The notes below the pieces were generated by a model. That model was given only the letters and a program-made list of their open reading frames with translations. It made no database searches and was not told the origin of the DNA. A stretch of 39,184 nucleotides of DNA, from positions 1 through 39,184 of the forward strand of contig JAISCL010000288.1 in NCBI GenBank assembly GCA_031265585.1, in the 5' to 3' direction. Shown piece by piece: positions 7,678-25,470 of the stretch; the stretch's first letter is position 1; every line of letters begins with the position of its first letter. Made by a program: the position numbers and the translations under genes. This DNA is from Tannerella sp. (GTDB lineage: Bacteria; Bacteroidota; Bacteroidia; Bacteroidales; Tannerellaceae).

Positions 7678-8976
7678 ATGAAAAAAAACATTCTATTATT
7701 CAGTTTAAGTTGTTTTCTGGCAGTATCATGTGAAAACCCAGATGTTAAAAACACGGATGTCGATGATGTCAATGATATCAGTGATGTCAGTGTCGACGAT
7801 ATTGAATTCCCCGCGCCGATATTCATTACGTTGACGGACGATGAACGGACGATGACAGGCGACTGTCAGGATTTTGCTATGAAATTCTTTTCAACGGTTT
7901 ATGGCGACGGGAAGGAAGAAAATATCTTCGTATCCCCTTTCAGCATGAGCATGGCGCTGGGAGTCCTGAGGAACGGAGCCGAAGGAGAAACAAAACGGGA
8001 GATGCAGGAAGTGTTGGGAATGAAAGATTTCTCCGATCAGGACATCAATGCGTATTACAAAAAGCTGAAGGAAGCGCTGATCACAACCGATCCGACGCTG
8101 AAACTGGCTATCGCAAATTCCGTATGGTACAATAAAGACCGTTATATGGTTAAAAGCGATTTCGCAGACCTCAGCCGGACATGGTTCGACACGCAGATAA
8201 CAGGCCTGGACTATTCCGATCCGGCCAAAGCCGTCGCAACCGTCAACAAATGGTGCGAAGACAACACAAACGGCTTGATAAAGGATATGTTGAAAAATCT
8301 GATGCCCTTTGAGATCCTTAATGCTTTATATTTTAAAGGAGACTGGAGTGAGAGTTATGATTTTGACGTTTCAAAAACGAAAAAAGAGGATTTTACCAAA
8401 GAAGACGGAAGCAAAATAAAGGCTGAGTTGATGAATAACAAGCTGACGCTTCCTTATTATGAAGACGATTACCTGTCTTTAACGTCCGTCCCTTATGGAA
8501 ACAAGGCTTACTCCATGTATTTTGTCCTTCCGAAGGAAAATGTCACCTTTAGCGAAATGACAGCGCAACTTGCCGAGCCGGATTATTGGAAGCAGTGCCT
8601 GGCCTGGCAGTATTCAGCCGAAGTAGATATTTCTGTCCCGAAATTCAAAATTGAATATAAGAATGAAGAATTGAAAGATATTCTGAGCCGGATGGGCATG
8701 GAGATTGCCTGCAGTCCCGAAGCGGAATATCCTCACATAGCCAATGCAGAATTTATTATTGCGCGTATAACGCAGAAAACCTATATTCAGGTTGATGAAA
8801 AAGGAACCGAGGCTGCCGCCGTTACGGAAATCGGCTTAGTAGAAAGTGCTGGCGGATCCGACTATGAAACTCCGAAAAAGACGTTCCGTGCCGACCGGAC
8901 GTTCCTTTTCCTGATACAGGAGCGTTATACCGGAACGATCCTTTTCATGGGAAAAGTAGGTAATCCGGCGGAATAA
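7678..8976 (+). CDS. Serpin (serine/cysteine protease inhibitor) lipoprotein
   Basis: 432 residues. The N-terminus MKKNILLFSLSCFLAVSCEN carries a lipobox with Cys18, so it should be membrane-anchored. A 25-residue Asp/Val-rich linker follows, encoded by near-tandem GATGTC-type triplets. The serpin fold is shown by NIFVSPFSMSMALGVLRNGA, NALYFKGDW, ISVPKFKIEY and the C-terminal FLFLIQERYTGTILFMGKV. The reactive-loop hinge EKGTEAAAVT (374-383) has the small residues needed for loop insertion, so it should be inhibitory. Counting from the hinge, P1 falls near Ser390, but the segment before FRADRTF is about eight residues longer than in alpha-1-antitrypsin, so P1 is uncertain. Tannerella forsythia miropin is a characterised bacterial relative. 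The segment before NALYFKGDW looks a few residues short. Likely role: protecting the cell surface from host or microbial proteases. Confidence 0.94.
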   Translation: MKKNILLFSLSCFLAVSCENPDVKNTDVDDVNDISDVSVDDIEFPAPIFITLTDDERTMTGDCQDFAMKFFSTVYGDGKEENIFVSPFSMSMALGVLRNGAEGETKREMQEVLGMKDFSDQDINAYYKKLKEALITTDPTLKLAIANSVWYNKDRYMVKSDFADLSRTWFDTQITGLDYSDPAKAVATVNKWCEDNTNGLIKDMLKNLMPFEILNALYFKGDWSESYDFDVSKTKKEDFTKEDGSKIKAELMNNKLTLPYYEDDYLSLTSVPYGNKAYSMYFVLPKENVTFSEMTAQLAEPDYWKQCLAWQYSAEVDISVPKFKIEYKNEELKDILSRMGMEIACSPEAEYPHIANAEFIIARITQKTYIQVDEKGTEAAAVTEIGLVESAGGSDYETPKKTFRADRTFLFLIQERYTGTILFMGKVGNPAE

Positions 8977-13507: not shown

Positions 13508-13633
13508 ACTAAAGACACGTGACATTGAACTAAAGACACGTGGCATCAAACTAAAGACACATGACATTTAGCTAGAAACACGTGTCTTTAAATAAAAATC
13601 ACGTGCTTTTTTATCTAAAGCTGCGGTCTTCCC
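13508..13633. repeat. Tandem 21-base array centred on CACGTG
   Basis: Five units at 13508, 13529, 13550, 13571 and 13592 have an exact 21-base period. The core is CACGTG at 13516, 13537, 13579 and 13600, and CACATG at 13558. The first three units share ACTAAAGACACRTGRCAT. The fourth carries the inverted flank (CACGTGTCTTTAA), and the fifth is a near-perfect palindrome around the core. A sixth, diverged unit (CTAAAGCTGCGG) follows at about 13613. It is non-coding and lies between two divergent genes. Confidence 0.9.
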
Positions 13634-22127: not shown

Positions 22128-22149
22128 GGCTTTAATCCCGGAAAGCCTC
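22126..22149. terminator. Hairpin overlapping two convergent stop codons
   Basis: GAGGCTTT-AATCCCGG-AAAGCCTC is a perfect 8-bp stem. It includes part of the stop of the 21252 gene and the stop of the aminopeptidase. No clear T-run follows on either strand, so terminator function is uncertain. Confidence 0.45.
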
Positions 22150-23508
22150 CACCTCTTCAACCGTTCGCGGTATACGTTTACCCAAAAGGCGGGCGCCTGT
22201 TTCGGTTATCAGATAATCTTCTTCATTACGTATTCCTCCGAAACTTTTACAGGCTTCCAGTTTTTCATAATTGATAAAGCCGGGATACTTATTTTCCGCT
22301 TTCCACTGATCAATCAATTCCGGAATAAAGTATACGCCGGGTTCTATCGTATGTACAAATCCCGGCTCCAATACCCGGCCCAGGCGAAGGGAAGCGCGAC
22401 CGAACTGTTTGCTCTTTGGACGGCCGTCATATCCCACATATACCTCACCCAGATTTTCCATATCATGCACATCAAGCCCCATCATGTGACCCAGTCCGTG
22501 CGGATAAAACAGGGCATACGCACCGGATGCCAGCGCCTCCTCCGTATCACCGCGCATCAGGCCCAGTCCTTTTAGCCCTTCAATCATTACCCTGGCCGAT
22601 ATGTCATAGACCTCCTCAAACGCAATGCCGGGACGAAGCGCCTCGACAGACTGATCGTGCATGGCCGTCTGTATCCTGTATATATCAGCCTGCCAGGCAG
22701 TAAACCGGTGGTCTGCCGGAGTGGTGGACGACATGTCGCCGGCATAACACGCCGCTGTTTCCGCACCGGCGTCAACCAGGAACAGGTCGCCGCTCTTAAC
22801 CGGATTCCCGTGATAATGATTATGAAGCGTCTGTCCGTTGACCGTTGCGATGACAGGAAAGGACAAAGCGCAGTTCCGTGCACCGGCAACCGATTCGATC
22901 GCTGCAACAACTTCGTATTCATGAATGCCGGGACGAATTGCGCGCATTGCCGCCAGATGCATGTCGGCTGTGACCAGGCAGGCCTTTTCTATCTCCGCAA
23001 CTTCTTCGTCCGACTTATAATTACGCAGATTGACAACGGCCCGGATAAAATCTGCCGATGATTTTTCCTCATCCGGAAGTACTCCGAGCCGCTTCCAGAG
23101 CGTAAGCTTGTGTTCGGGACGGTAGGAGGGCAGATAATGTACCGCCCGGCCCTTTTGCCGCGCCTTCTGCAGGAAATCCGTGACGGCGCCGGCGGGCATC
23201 AGCTCGCTGATCCCGGCAAATGCGCACTTTTCCCGAAGGGTCGGCTGCGTACCCATCCAGATAATATCATCCATTGTCGGTTCATCTCCGAATATAATTT
23301 CACGGTCATCATCAATATCTATCACGGCAGACAGGCCGGCGTACGGCTGACCGAAAAAATACAGGAACGTAGAGTCCTGACGGTAAGGATAGGTATTGCC
23401 GGCATAATTGCATCCGGCCTCATCGTTGCCTGAAAAAAGCAACAAACCGGAACCTATCGCTTTCTTCAGCGATGTCCGGCGGTCCATATACGTTTCTTTA
23501 CTGAACAT
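22132..23508 (-). CDS. Xaa-Pro aminopeptidase (M24B, aminopeptidase P family)
   Basis: 458 residues from the ATG at 23508. The frame is open to 23640, but a -7 element at 23532-23539 places the start here. The N-terminal creatinase-like domain (residues ~1-170, LLLFSGNDEAGCNYAGNTYPYRQDSTFLYFFG) is followed by the pita-bread metallopeptidase domain. Its dimetal ligands are visible: Asp ~247 in LVDAGAE, Asp ~258 in YAGDMSS, His ~340 in HGLGHMMGLDVHD, Glu ~387 in HTIEPGVYF and Glu ~431 in GIRNEEDYLI. It should remove N-terminal residues preceding proline from peptides. There is no signal peptide, so it is cytosolic. It is monocistronic. Confidence 0.93.
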   Translation of the reverse strand: MFSKETYMDRRTSLKKAIGSGLLLFSGNDEAGCNYAGNTYPYRQDSTFLYFFGQPYAGLSAVIDIDDDREIIFGDEPTMDDIIWMGTQPTLREKCAFAGISELMPAGAVTDFLQKARQKGRAVHYLPSYRPEHKLTLWKRLGVLPDEEKSSADFIRAVVNLRNYKSDEEVAEIEKACLVTADMHLAAMRAIRPGIHEYEVVAAIESVAGARNCALSFPVIATVNGQTLHNHYHGNPVKSGDLFLVDAGAETAACYAGDMSSTTPADHRFTAWQADIYRIQTAMHDQSVEALRPGIAFEEVYDISARVMIEGLKGLGLMRGDTEEALASGAYALFYPHGLGHMMGLDVHDMENLGEVYVGYDGRPKSKQFGRASLRLGRVLEPGFVHTIEPGVYFIPELIDQWKAENKYPGFINYEKLEACKSFGGIRNEEDYLITETGARLLGKRIPRTVEEVEAFRD

Positions 23509-23531
23509 AAGATATAGTTTTAATTCGTTTC

Positions 23532-23539
23532 CAAAGATA
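23532..23539 (-). promoter_or_regulatory. -7 element for the aminopeptidase
   Basis: TATCTTTG on the minus strand, 23 bases before the start at 23508, matches TAnnTTTG. Confidence 0.55.
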
Positions 23540-23624
23540 GGGCAAATGGAGTGCAATACAAAACGAATGCCCGCTTTTATTTTAAAATAAGGAACGGGCT
23601 TCGTCATATTATCATTCATTTTAT

Positions 23625-23632
23625 TACTTTTG
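23625..23632 (+). promoter_or_regulatory. Orphan plus-strand -7 element
   Basis: TACTTTTG matches TAnnTTTG, but no real plus-strand gene follows. A transcript from here would cross the 28-codon ORF and then the repeat array. Confidence 0.4.
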
Positions 23633-23682
23633 CAGGACAAAACGATTGGCTTTTTACATTATAACTTTAACATAATTATCTT

Positions 23683-23769
23683 ATGAGAACAAAATATTTA
23701 TTACTTTTCCATGCAGCCGAAGCAAAATTACCGTTAGCCCCGTTCCGGACGGATGACTGGGATAATTGA
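23683..23769 (+). CDS. Possible 28-residue ORF or truncated gene start
   Basis: ATG-initiated frame MRTKYLLLFHAAEAKLPLAP ending DDWDN. It lies about 50 bases after the orphan -7 element and has the look of a normal gene start (basic then hydrophobic), but it stops after 28 codons. It may be the remnant of a secreted protein gene replaced by the array, or chance. Confidence 0.25.
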   Translation: MRTKYLLLFHAAEAKLPLAPFRTDDWDN

Positions 23770-23908
23770 AAATTGAGAACCTGTCATGTCCTGAAAAAAC
23801 GATACACATTTCTTGATTATTACTTCCTTCTTTATTTTTTGTATCCGTCTGCAAATCAGCAAATATATTCCGCATTTTCTGCCGGAAATACATCTTTTCC
23901 ATAAAACC

Positions 23909-24090
23909 GACGCGTCACATCCCGATCTGACGCGTCACATTCTGATCTGACGCGTCGGTTTCCGATATGACGCGTTTTATCACAATCTAACGCGTTCTTT
24001 TTTATAATATGACGCGTTCGTTTCCGATATGACGAGTCATATCGGAATGTGACGCGTCAGACTCCGATGTGACGCTTCCTTTTCCTGTTC
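23909..24090. repeat. Tandem 20-base array, GACGCGTC type
   Basis: Nine units start at 23909, 23929, 23949, 23969, 23989, 24011, 24031, 24051 and 24071; eight are 20 bases and one (23989) is 22. Each begins with GACGCGTC, a perfect 8-base palindrome, or a one- or two-base variant (GACGAGTC, GACGCTTC, AACGCGTT). Most end TCCGATAT or similar. The middle bases vary. No frame runs through it with a plausible protein. Confidence 0.93.
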
Positions 24091-24200
24091 GCGGGGTATT
24101 ACGCCGGTTCACGGGATGTTACGCCGATATGCGGGGTATTATGCCGGTTCACGGGGTATTCTGCCGGTTCGCGGCGTGCCGCGCCGGTATTAGCGGGAAA
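24091..24200. repeat. Tandem 20-base array, GCGGGGTATT type
   Basis: Units at 24091, 24111, 24131, 24151 and 24171, with a diverged one at 24191, keep the exact 20-base register of the preceding array but use a different word, RCGGGGTATTAYGCCGGTTC. The unit at 24071 is intermediate: its left half is of the GACGCGTC type and its right end is TGTTC. The array runs up to the TolC stop codon at 24202. Confidence 0.9.
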
Positions 24201-24201
24201 A

Positions 24202-25470
24202 TTACGGGTGCAGTTCTATGTCCCAGATCCCGCAGGCGCGCTCGAGTTCGACCAGGGCGAATGCGCAGTCGAACAATACTTCGCTGTAATTCACCCGGAC
24301 ATCGTTGTATGTGCGCCGGGCGTTGAAGACTTCCAGGATGCTGGCTTCACCACGCTCGTAACCGTACCGCTTCTTCAGGAAAATGGCGTGCGCGTCGTCC
24401 AGAAGCCCGGCCTCGAAATGTTCTGCCCGGCGACAGGCGGTCATGTACCTGTTGTAAGCCTGCATGACTTCCGAGCTTATTTGCAGCTCGATGGCTTCGT
24501 ATTGCCTTTCTCCCTGTTCGGCCGTCAGCCGGGCTGCGCGCAGCGCTCCCCTGTTCGCGTTTGAGAAGCGCAGGGGGATGCCGACGCCGGCCGTGATGCC
24601 TTTAAACGCCGGAGCCGGTGCGATTTCATTCCGCACGGCCGACGAATAGTTGCCTCCGATGACGATCTCCAAATCAATGGCCCGGTTCGCTTTCGCCAGT
24701 TCCAGGTTACGCTGCGATACGTCCCGGTACTTGAGCGCCGCCTGCAGGTCCGCACGGTTATGCTGCGCCGCCGCGACGAGCCGGGCCGGATCGAACGTCC
24801 GCTTCAGGCCGGTCGGTGCGCCTGCAATGGAATCGGGCAATGCCATCGTCGCATCGCCCTGGAACAGGAGCAGCCGAAGCAGCGCTTCCTGCAGGTCGCC
24901 CCCGGTCGAAAGCGCTTCGTCGAGCGCGGCGGCCGCTTCGAGTTTCGACTGCCGCGCATCCACTTCCGTGATCTCTCCCAGGCGGAAGCGGATACTGTCG
25001 GCGCGCGCCAGTTCGAGCATCTGCACGTGCGATGATTTCCGTATTTCGTACAGTTCACGCTGCTTGAGCGCGGTTAGATAAGCGAGGGTGGCATCGGCGC
25101 GCAGGTTGCGGAAGTAGTCTTCCAGCAGGGCCGCGGTCATTTCCATTTCGCTTTGGGCTACCCGTATGCGGGCGTTCCGCTTGCCGCCCAGTTCCAGCGT
25201 GTAGCTCAACCCGGCATCCACGCCGTAGCCCATTTGAAGATTCCAATTCTGATTATTGGCATAACCGGCCGACAATTCGGGGTCGGGAAAAACCTTAGAC
25301 GCCGTCAGGCGGGCCCCGGCGATTTCTACATTATACTTTTCCGCCAGGTAGCTGATGTTGGCATTCCGGACATGATCCAGGTATTCGCCGAACGTCAATA
25401 CCCGTTGCGCCTGAACCGGGAAGGCCGGCAGGCAGAGGAACAGGATCAAATATTTCAGGGGATTATTCAT
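24202..25470 (-). CDS. TolC/CusC-family outer-membrane efflux protein
   Basis: 422 residues with a signal peptide ending PAFPVQAQ. Two outer-membrane-efflux repeats contain long alpha-helical segments (AEKYNVEIAGARLTASKVFP, ELARADSIRFRLGEITEVDA, KYRDVSQRNLELAKANRAID, KKRYGYERGEASILEVFNAR) that form the periplasmic tunnel, and the barrel-strand segments SAGYANNQNW and IVIGGNYSS. It has no lipobox, unlike E. coli CusC. It is the outer-membrane channel of the tripartite heavy-metal pump, and its start overlaps the pump gene's end by eight bases. The stop codon abuts the 20-base repeat array and no ordinary terminator is seen. Confidence 0.92.
   Translation of the reverse strand: MNNPLKYLILFLCLPAFPVQAQRVLTFGEYLDHVRNANISYLAEKYNVEIAGARLTASKVFPDPELSAGYANNQNWNLQMGYGVDAGLSYTLELGGKRNARIRVAQSEMEMTAALLEDYFRNLRADATLAYLTALKQRELYEIRKSSHVQMLELARADSIRFRLGEITEVDARQSKLEAAAALDEALSTGGDLQEALLRLLLFQGDATMALPDSIAGAPTGLKRTFDPARLVAAAQHNRADLQAALKYRDVSQRNLELAKANRAIDLEIVIGGNYSSAVRNEIAPAPAFKGITAGVGIPLRFSNANRGALRAARLTAEQGERQYEAIELQISSEVMQAYNRYMTACRRAEHFEAGLLDDAHAIFLKKRYGYERGEASILEVFNARRTYNDVRVNYSEVLFDCAFALVELERACGIWDIELHP

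Follow-up and report, generated by a model that had tools for sequence, protein, structure and literature searches.

A class of intergenic minisatellites, with unit lengths in two bands and an excess of dyad symmetry, is found in the sampled DNA of the genus of this Tannerella sp., and the observation is robust. The words of these arrays differ, many of the units are dyad-symmetric, and the dyads recur every ~20-21 bp, the unit being either 20-23 bp long or 40-43 bp long with two dyads. Arrays B and C (Table 1), which lie in the window analyzed here (the whole stretch of 39,184 nucleotides of contig JAISCL010000288.1), are best explained as a small, partly decayed member of this class of the Bacteroidales genus. 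For the class itself our tentative reading, to which we give a probability of about 0.45, is that of self-renewing palindromic minisatellites, which would grow in place and be held near a two-turn dyad spacing by some constraint.

Table 1. Arrays, genes and repeated stretches discussed in the text. Positions are those of the window unless a locus is named.
Feature	Position	Strand	Basis
Array A: 21-bp units, core CACGTG, upstream of DUF2807 gene	13508..13605	.	Tandem Repeats Finder
AMP_N / Peptidase_M24 aminopeptidase gene	22132..23508	-	ORF + Pfam
Short repeated stretch CTGTCATGTCCTGAAAAAACGATACACATTT, between aminopeptidase and array B	23780..23822	.	Sequence search
Array B: nine 20-bp units on palindrome GACGCGTC, dyad ATNTGACGCGTCANAT	23909..24078	.	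Tandem Repeats Finder + word positions
Array C: five 20-bp units, second word GTTCGCGGGGTATTACGCCG, continuing the 20-bp pitch of B	24084..24190	.	Tandem Repeats Finder (24087-24174), scan
OEP (TolC-type) gene beside AcrB-type and HlyD-type genes	24202..25470	-	ORF + Pfam
Dispersed 41-bp arrays, common leader, two covarying dyads per unit	L260 433-754, L261 400-597, L262 434-717		Own genome

Array B and its locus

The core words of array B start at 23909, 23929, 23949, 23969, 23989, 24011, 24031, 24051 and 24071, with spacings of 20, 20, 20, 20, 22, 20, 20 and 20 bp, exactly the nine units of near-perfect 20-base period that had been proposed. GACGCGTC occurs four times among them, GACGCGTT twice, and AACGCGTT, GACGAGTC and GACGCTTC once each; four overlapping Tandem Repeats Finder rows cover the array. 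It had also been thought that both the palindrome and the TCCGATAT end are preserved. The TCCGATAT end is present in only part of the units, and in the unit at 24031 it comes inverted, as GACGAGTCATATCGGAA. Nor does the array stop at 24090, the limit first given to it: the same 20-bp pitch runs on into the second word to ~24190, and B and C have ~14 units together. When the register of B is continued into C, 9 of the 20 consensus positions agree (p 0.054 against shuffles), a figure which one further register also reaches, and a common origin of the two may be possible. Array C adjoins the stop of the OEP/TolC gene and is overlapped by an 85-aa frame (24069-24326, + strand).

When array B was compared with its own reverse complement, 67% identity was obtained over 166 bp, the best of 100 shuffles giving 58%, and as single-stranded DNA the array folds as one long hairpin (z -9.5). 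The corresponding self-reverse-complementarity has a z of 1.1 for array C and of 3.2 for array A (p 0.010). The mean pitch of array B is 20.25 bp, ~0.75 bp under two 10.5-bp turns, so that the palindromes drift by about half a turn across the array; the idea that they lie on one face of the DNA therefore holds locally but not over the whole array. Its description as non-coding and palindromic, with a pitch of about two turns, was upheld. B and C are intergenic, between the M24 aminopeptidase gene and the TolC-type gene, and no ORF of at least 80 aa spanning array B was found in the window. Because of this and of the 20-bp pitch a coding (heptad) repeat was rejected for array B; a coding repeat was rejected also for array A and the 41-bp arrays. 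With CRISPR the array has regular tandem units in common, but there are no unique spacers, as had been noted: the whole unit repeats. A Pfam scan of the nine window proteins assigned families to seven, no Cas family among them, and no Rfam family reached its gathering score in the window. A chance origin was also rejected, since no segment exceeded the scanner threshold in three samples (651,584, 400,000 and 334,054 bases) shuffled within 60-base blocks.

The original prediction had pointed to cooperative binding of a dimeric protein. If so, the array might serve a dimeric regulator as operator for the aminopeptidase gene or the efflux operon. The perfect palindrome, the regular pitch and the position on the 5' side of the aminopeptidase gene are what such an operator would show, but array B lies ~400 bp from the start of that gene (the start at 23508 is a chosen one; the open frame extends to 23640), and several comparisons argue against the idea at this locus. 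First, two exact GACGCGTC words at the spacing of B were found in 1 of 41 genus genomes, namely its own, and there only at the array B locus. Secondly, the 16-bp dyad ATNTGACGCGTCANAT, with at most 2 mismatches, has 20 sites in the genome, 6 in array B and 14 elsewhere, as against 16 for the reversed control; no regulon for the dyad was found in this count, and a common word or regulon was rejected. Thirdly, in none of 29 relatives' loci was an array found in the gap that immediately precedes the aminopeptidase gene, the array of L096 lying beyond the next gene. The TolC-type gene adjoins the aminopeptidase gene in 0 of these 29 loci and in the own genome only of 30 loci, some flanks being short, which puts B and C at a synteny break. 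The relatives have other 5' neighbors of the aminopeptidase in common, and the intergenic DNA at the array B locus matches one relative, over 117 bases. An operator here is thus highly improbable.

On the other side of the arrays, a TolC match at E<=1e-60 was obtained in 14 of 41 genomes. In L066 (a Tannerellaceae MAG) a 23-bp array at 8621-8705, with a different word, starts at the TolC stop codon. In the other 12 TolC loci no downstream array of comparable strength was found (the sequences of L065 and L069 stop no more than 24 bases past the match), and L074 has two weak rows ~300 bp downstream of TolC. An array as a conserved feature behind TolC was rejected, and the case of L066, the only comparable one, is treated as a coincidence.

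Unit lengths and words in the genus

Lags of 12-60 were scanned in the own genome (G000; 651,584 bases in 61 stretches, window included, four contigs of which were sampled because a sequence search had matched them, not randomly), in 400,000 bases of G042 (same genus; one contig, 3.01 Mb), in 334,054 bases of G023 (same genus) and in 343,734 bases of 20 other genus members. All 15 non-coding arrays of G000, L020 among them being counted as coding, have periods of 20-23 or 41-43 bp, which bears out the recurrence of the period within the same genome on which the original prediction depended. In G042, 68 of 77 non-coding arrays (two coding-like) fall within 20-23 or 40-44 bp and 9 fall outside these bands. 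The 20 other genus members gave 26 non-coding arrays, 16 in the bands (some of them weak or coding-like) and 10 outside, at periods of 12-15, 30, 33, 36 and 39; G023 had no array in the 334 kb scanned. When G042 was scanned with lags of 8-130 and a higher threshold, rows also appeared at 82-84 (7) and 123 (2), which are multiples of 41, with single rows elsewhere. Outside the genus, in-band rows were observed among 28 loci in L066 (23 bp), L077 (42 bp) and L076 (21 bp, low complexity), and six genomes of the same order (45,949 bases) had no in-band rows. The 68 in-band arrays of G042 occupy 16,400 bp of the 400-kb sample; this density, if even, would mean ~500 arrays genome-wide. Contigs end or start inside arrays at the end of L110, the start of L056 and the end of L208, so that short-read assemblies may under-count them.

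By a BLAST clustering cut-off, 92 arrays, preselected at 19-24 and 39-44 bp, gave 61 words, distributed over unit lengths of 20 (3), 21 (6), 22 (3), 23 (2), 40 (2), 41 (19), 42 (24) and 43 bp (2). Some of the 61 words have half-units in common by eye, e.g. GAAAAACTTTTT in several G042 arrays, and part of the clustering of periods may therefore be due to common descent. Four coding-like arrays (L020, L141 8791, L146 12437, L199 2312) were removed from this clustering and L066 was added; three further loci, L202, L205 and L207, whose four rows of 20-22 bp and single 39-bp row were weak or coding-like, were excluded by judgement from the clustering and from the stem-length, symmetry and second-dyad analyses.

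Coding-like 21-bp repeats of seven residues, sharing their period with the non-coding class, were seen in L013, L020, L043, L141 (8791-8881) and L146 (12437-12527). The coding reading was retained for L013, L020, L043 and two G042 arrays with seven-residue repeats, and no dyads were found in the three that were tested (L020, L141, L146).

Dyads, stems and the level of action

Self-reverse-complementarity reached p<0.05 in 41 of 95 arrays, where ~5 are expected, the other 54 lying above that limit. Among the words of 39-44 bp, 21 of 47 have a dyad of 7-8 of 8 pairs (shuffles ~1.6), centered mostly on a base (17 odd, 3 even, 1 tie); among those of 19-24 bp the proportion is 4 of 14 (shuffles ~0.2). 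A second dyad of at least 5 of 7 pairs is present in 48 of 75 arrays of 39-44 bp (17.7 when shuffled), and in 27 of these 48 it lies 19-21 bp from the first (2.3 when shuffled). The 41-bp unit can thus often be read as a pair of dyads set apart by the pitch of the 20-23-bp arrays.

In 43 arrays with stems of at least 6, departures from the consensus amount to 197 of 4430 in stems, 127 of 1121 in loops and 533 of 6309 in the rest, which suggests that stems are less variable than loops. The stem divergence is below the mean of a column-permuted control (7.7%), but not below its lowest run (1.8%), the control being noisy with ~5.5 arrays per run. Double changes that preserve pairing within arrays were found in 12 of 2103 pairs (0.57%), no excess over the column-permuted mean of 0.53%, and compensation consequently rests on one 41-bp family. 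This family (L260, L261 and L262), which shares the GACGCGTC core of array B in its second dyad, comprises 19 units, in which 8 of 13 pairs are doubly changed (reached in 2 of 500 shuffles). Doubly changed cells number 18 (shuffles 7.6; 0 of 500) and further pair types 15 (shuffles 12.6; 33 of 500). Pairing holds in 81.4% of cells, as compared with 30.5-43.1% when slid. The structure was read from the same, related units, and the controls do not fully remove these effects. A fourth match to the family was obtained by pattern search at G000:C180:6155.

Whether the arrays act as RNA can be judged from the stem mismatches and from the neighboring genes. Pairing as RNA would be expected to enrich GT among the mismatches. 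On the sense strand of 27 co-directional arrays the mismatches are 39 GT, 39 AC and 36 other; one array supplies 13 of the 39 AC, and without it GT leads AC by 38 to 26. Since no more than 47% of the G000 sample was assigned to coding sequence by the gene caller, gene contexts are weak there, and the context analysis relies on G042. The arrays of G042 lie in 44 co-directional, 15 divergent and 7 convergent contexts, with 2 at an edge, and the background of gaps of at least 150 bp is 83/30/19 in the same order; this closeness to the background speaks against terminators. The absence of a clear G-U bias in the stem mismatches and the irrelevance of gene orientation together suggest that the arrays act as DNA rather than RNA. 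Transcribed hairpins that stabilize or terminate mRNA would agree with the long hairpin that B and C together form as RNA too (z -6.3), with stems longer than in shuffles (p<0.05) in 30 of 75 arrays of 39-44-bp units, and with the lean toward GT when the one array is left out. However, a terminator-like site was not found in 23400-24400, the share of arrays lying between divergent genes is about that of gaps in general, no clear G-U bias appears across all 27 arrays, and at an orthologous locus the array comes after a hairpin and T-run that themselves read as a terminator. An RNA element is therefore very unlikely.

Turnover, fixed pitch and relation to known repeats

That orthologous locus lies behind the aminopeptidase gene in three related species, where the array, preceded by the common hairpin and T-run, has 6 units in G014, at least 2 in G044 (the contig ends inside) and ~1.5 in G041. 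Growth of an array in place is thus shown at one orthologous locus. Upstream of the DUF2807 gene, arrays were detected by scan in 2 of 12 usable loci, G000 (array A) and G042, and in none of the other 10 (in the locus set, L222 had 6 upstream bases and the row of L228 was misplaced). In G042 a 42-bp array is followed there, by eye, by a second repeated word, and its word is unlike that of G000. These differences in copy number and upstream of DUF2807 suggest that arrays are gained, grown and replaced. A promoter-like motif TGTAAC ... CGTC, which we take to resemble an ECF sigma promoter, was seen by eye upstream of the DUF2807 gene in relatives (L223-L234) and is not evident in the window copy.

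If the arrays are self-renewing, they would expand in place by slippage, and their single strands would fold back during replication, one arm being copied from the other; an array would then stay self-complementary while its word drifts. By such a mechanism words would become private and turn over fast. From the symmetry and the one 41-bp family we infer that fold-back correction of this kind may operate. Fold-back slippage alone, however, leaves the fixed pitch unexplained. The same spacing occurs with many sequences in related genomes, so that the spacing rather than the sequence seems to be fixed, and the likeliest setting of a pitch near two turns is by a dyad-recognizing DNA-binding protein or another ruler of the double helix.

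A protein might also account for the arrays altogether. A weakly sequence-specific, dyad-recognizing nucleoid protein could sit side by side every two turns, selection keeping intergenic dyads at that pitch. The two-band pitch over many words, the second dyad about half a unit off and the want of a clear RNA strand signature are compatible with such a lattice. Positions, on the other hand, are poorly conserved, as the DUF2807 loci with their different words indicate; the protein is a candidate only, and G023 is without an array in its sample. The G+C signal at 10.25-10.5 bp inside units has a power no greater than other harmonics of 41, and a helical periodicity of G+C was rejected. We regard this explanation as unlikely, though deserving of attention. 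Its far-reaching form, a chromosome-wide fixed-pitch palindromic lattice, in which varied intergenic sequences are kept as dyads every two turns and recognized through their shape and pitch instead of their word, seems doubtful to us.

Self-renewing minisatellites also have to be weighed against what is known of related bacteria. The closest known elements are the intergenic tandem repeats of 22, 23 and 41 nt of Porphyromonas gingivalis, to which BrickBuilt (23 nt) and 464/PgRS (41 nt) belong; their units are imperfect, long stem-loops are predicted for them, and copy number at a locus varies between strains (PMC4596501). The view that no named element has this form has to be qualified to that extent. 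Compared by description, both kinds are of the same order (by inference), intergenic, tandem and made of imperfect units. The arrays of the window (20, 20 and 21 bp) come near these lengths without equalling them; other sampled arrays have units of 22, 23 and 41 bp. The vehicle by which BrickBuilt spreads is a miniature transposon that has a leader, a tail and terminal repeats (PMC4596501). Array B, unlike BrickBuilt with its common leader and tail as described there, has flanks that match those of no compared array and match only a short stretch elsewhere.

This last point bears on whether array B came as an inserted miniature element carrying tandem repeats, like BrickBuilt or 464/PgRS. Some families are indeed dispersed with common flanks, namely a 22-bp family of G042 and L260, L261 and L262 with their leader; the locus of array B is a synteny break, and the stretch CTGTCATGTCCTGAAAAAACGATACACATTT at ~23780-23822, copies of which occur in contigs C374, C283 and C145 and in relatives, may resemble a transposon end. 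But apart from this stretch the surroundings of array B have no second copy in the genome, and singletons make up 37 of the 52 clusters of G000 and G042 arrays. Insertion is thus an improbable source of array B. Stretches of the CTGTCATGTCCTGAAAAAACGATACACATTT type were also observed beside genes elsewhere in the same genome (L041, L042) and in relatives (L029, L030, L038).

REP/BIME palindromes, which go with RAYT transposases, are likewise short, intergenic and present in many copies (PMC3733652), but most of the array words here do not form one family. A Y1_Tnp match was obtained in 8 of 16 genomes, G042 having one, and none was found in the array-bearing G014, G004, G016 and G044, which are draft genomes in which absence is uncertain; RAYT as the maker of the arrays was rejected, the presence of Y1_Tnp being without correlation to arrays. 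Around the single Y1_Tnp gene of G042 (L217 379-2055) there are repeats of 29, 31 and 35 bp, outside the bands, some with hairpins. Neisseria dRS3/NIME, F-plasmid sopC and plasmid iterons are palindromes or iterons at a pitch of 20-43 bp with one conserved word each, whereas the words here differ between arrays. In the titles and abstract openings covered, with subscription journals mostly outside, no pitch-locked palindromic arrays in Bacteroidales were described; patterns of DNA structure have been surveyed (PMC4060949).

Should a lattice nevertheless exist, it would correspond, in bacteria, to satellite or phased chromatin DNA. Tandem repeats usually preserve a word, and their length is arbitrary. 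Here a length class recurs while the words differ, and a ruler without a word calls for explanation. With such a ruler it becomes possible to test whether the P. gingivalis repeats of 22, 23 and 41 nt are an instance of a more general rule.
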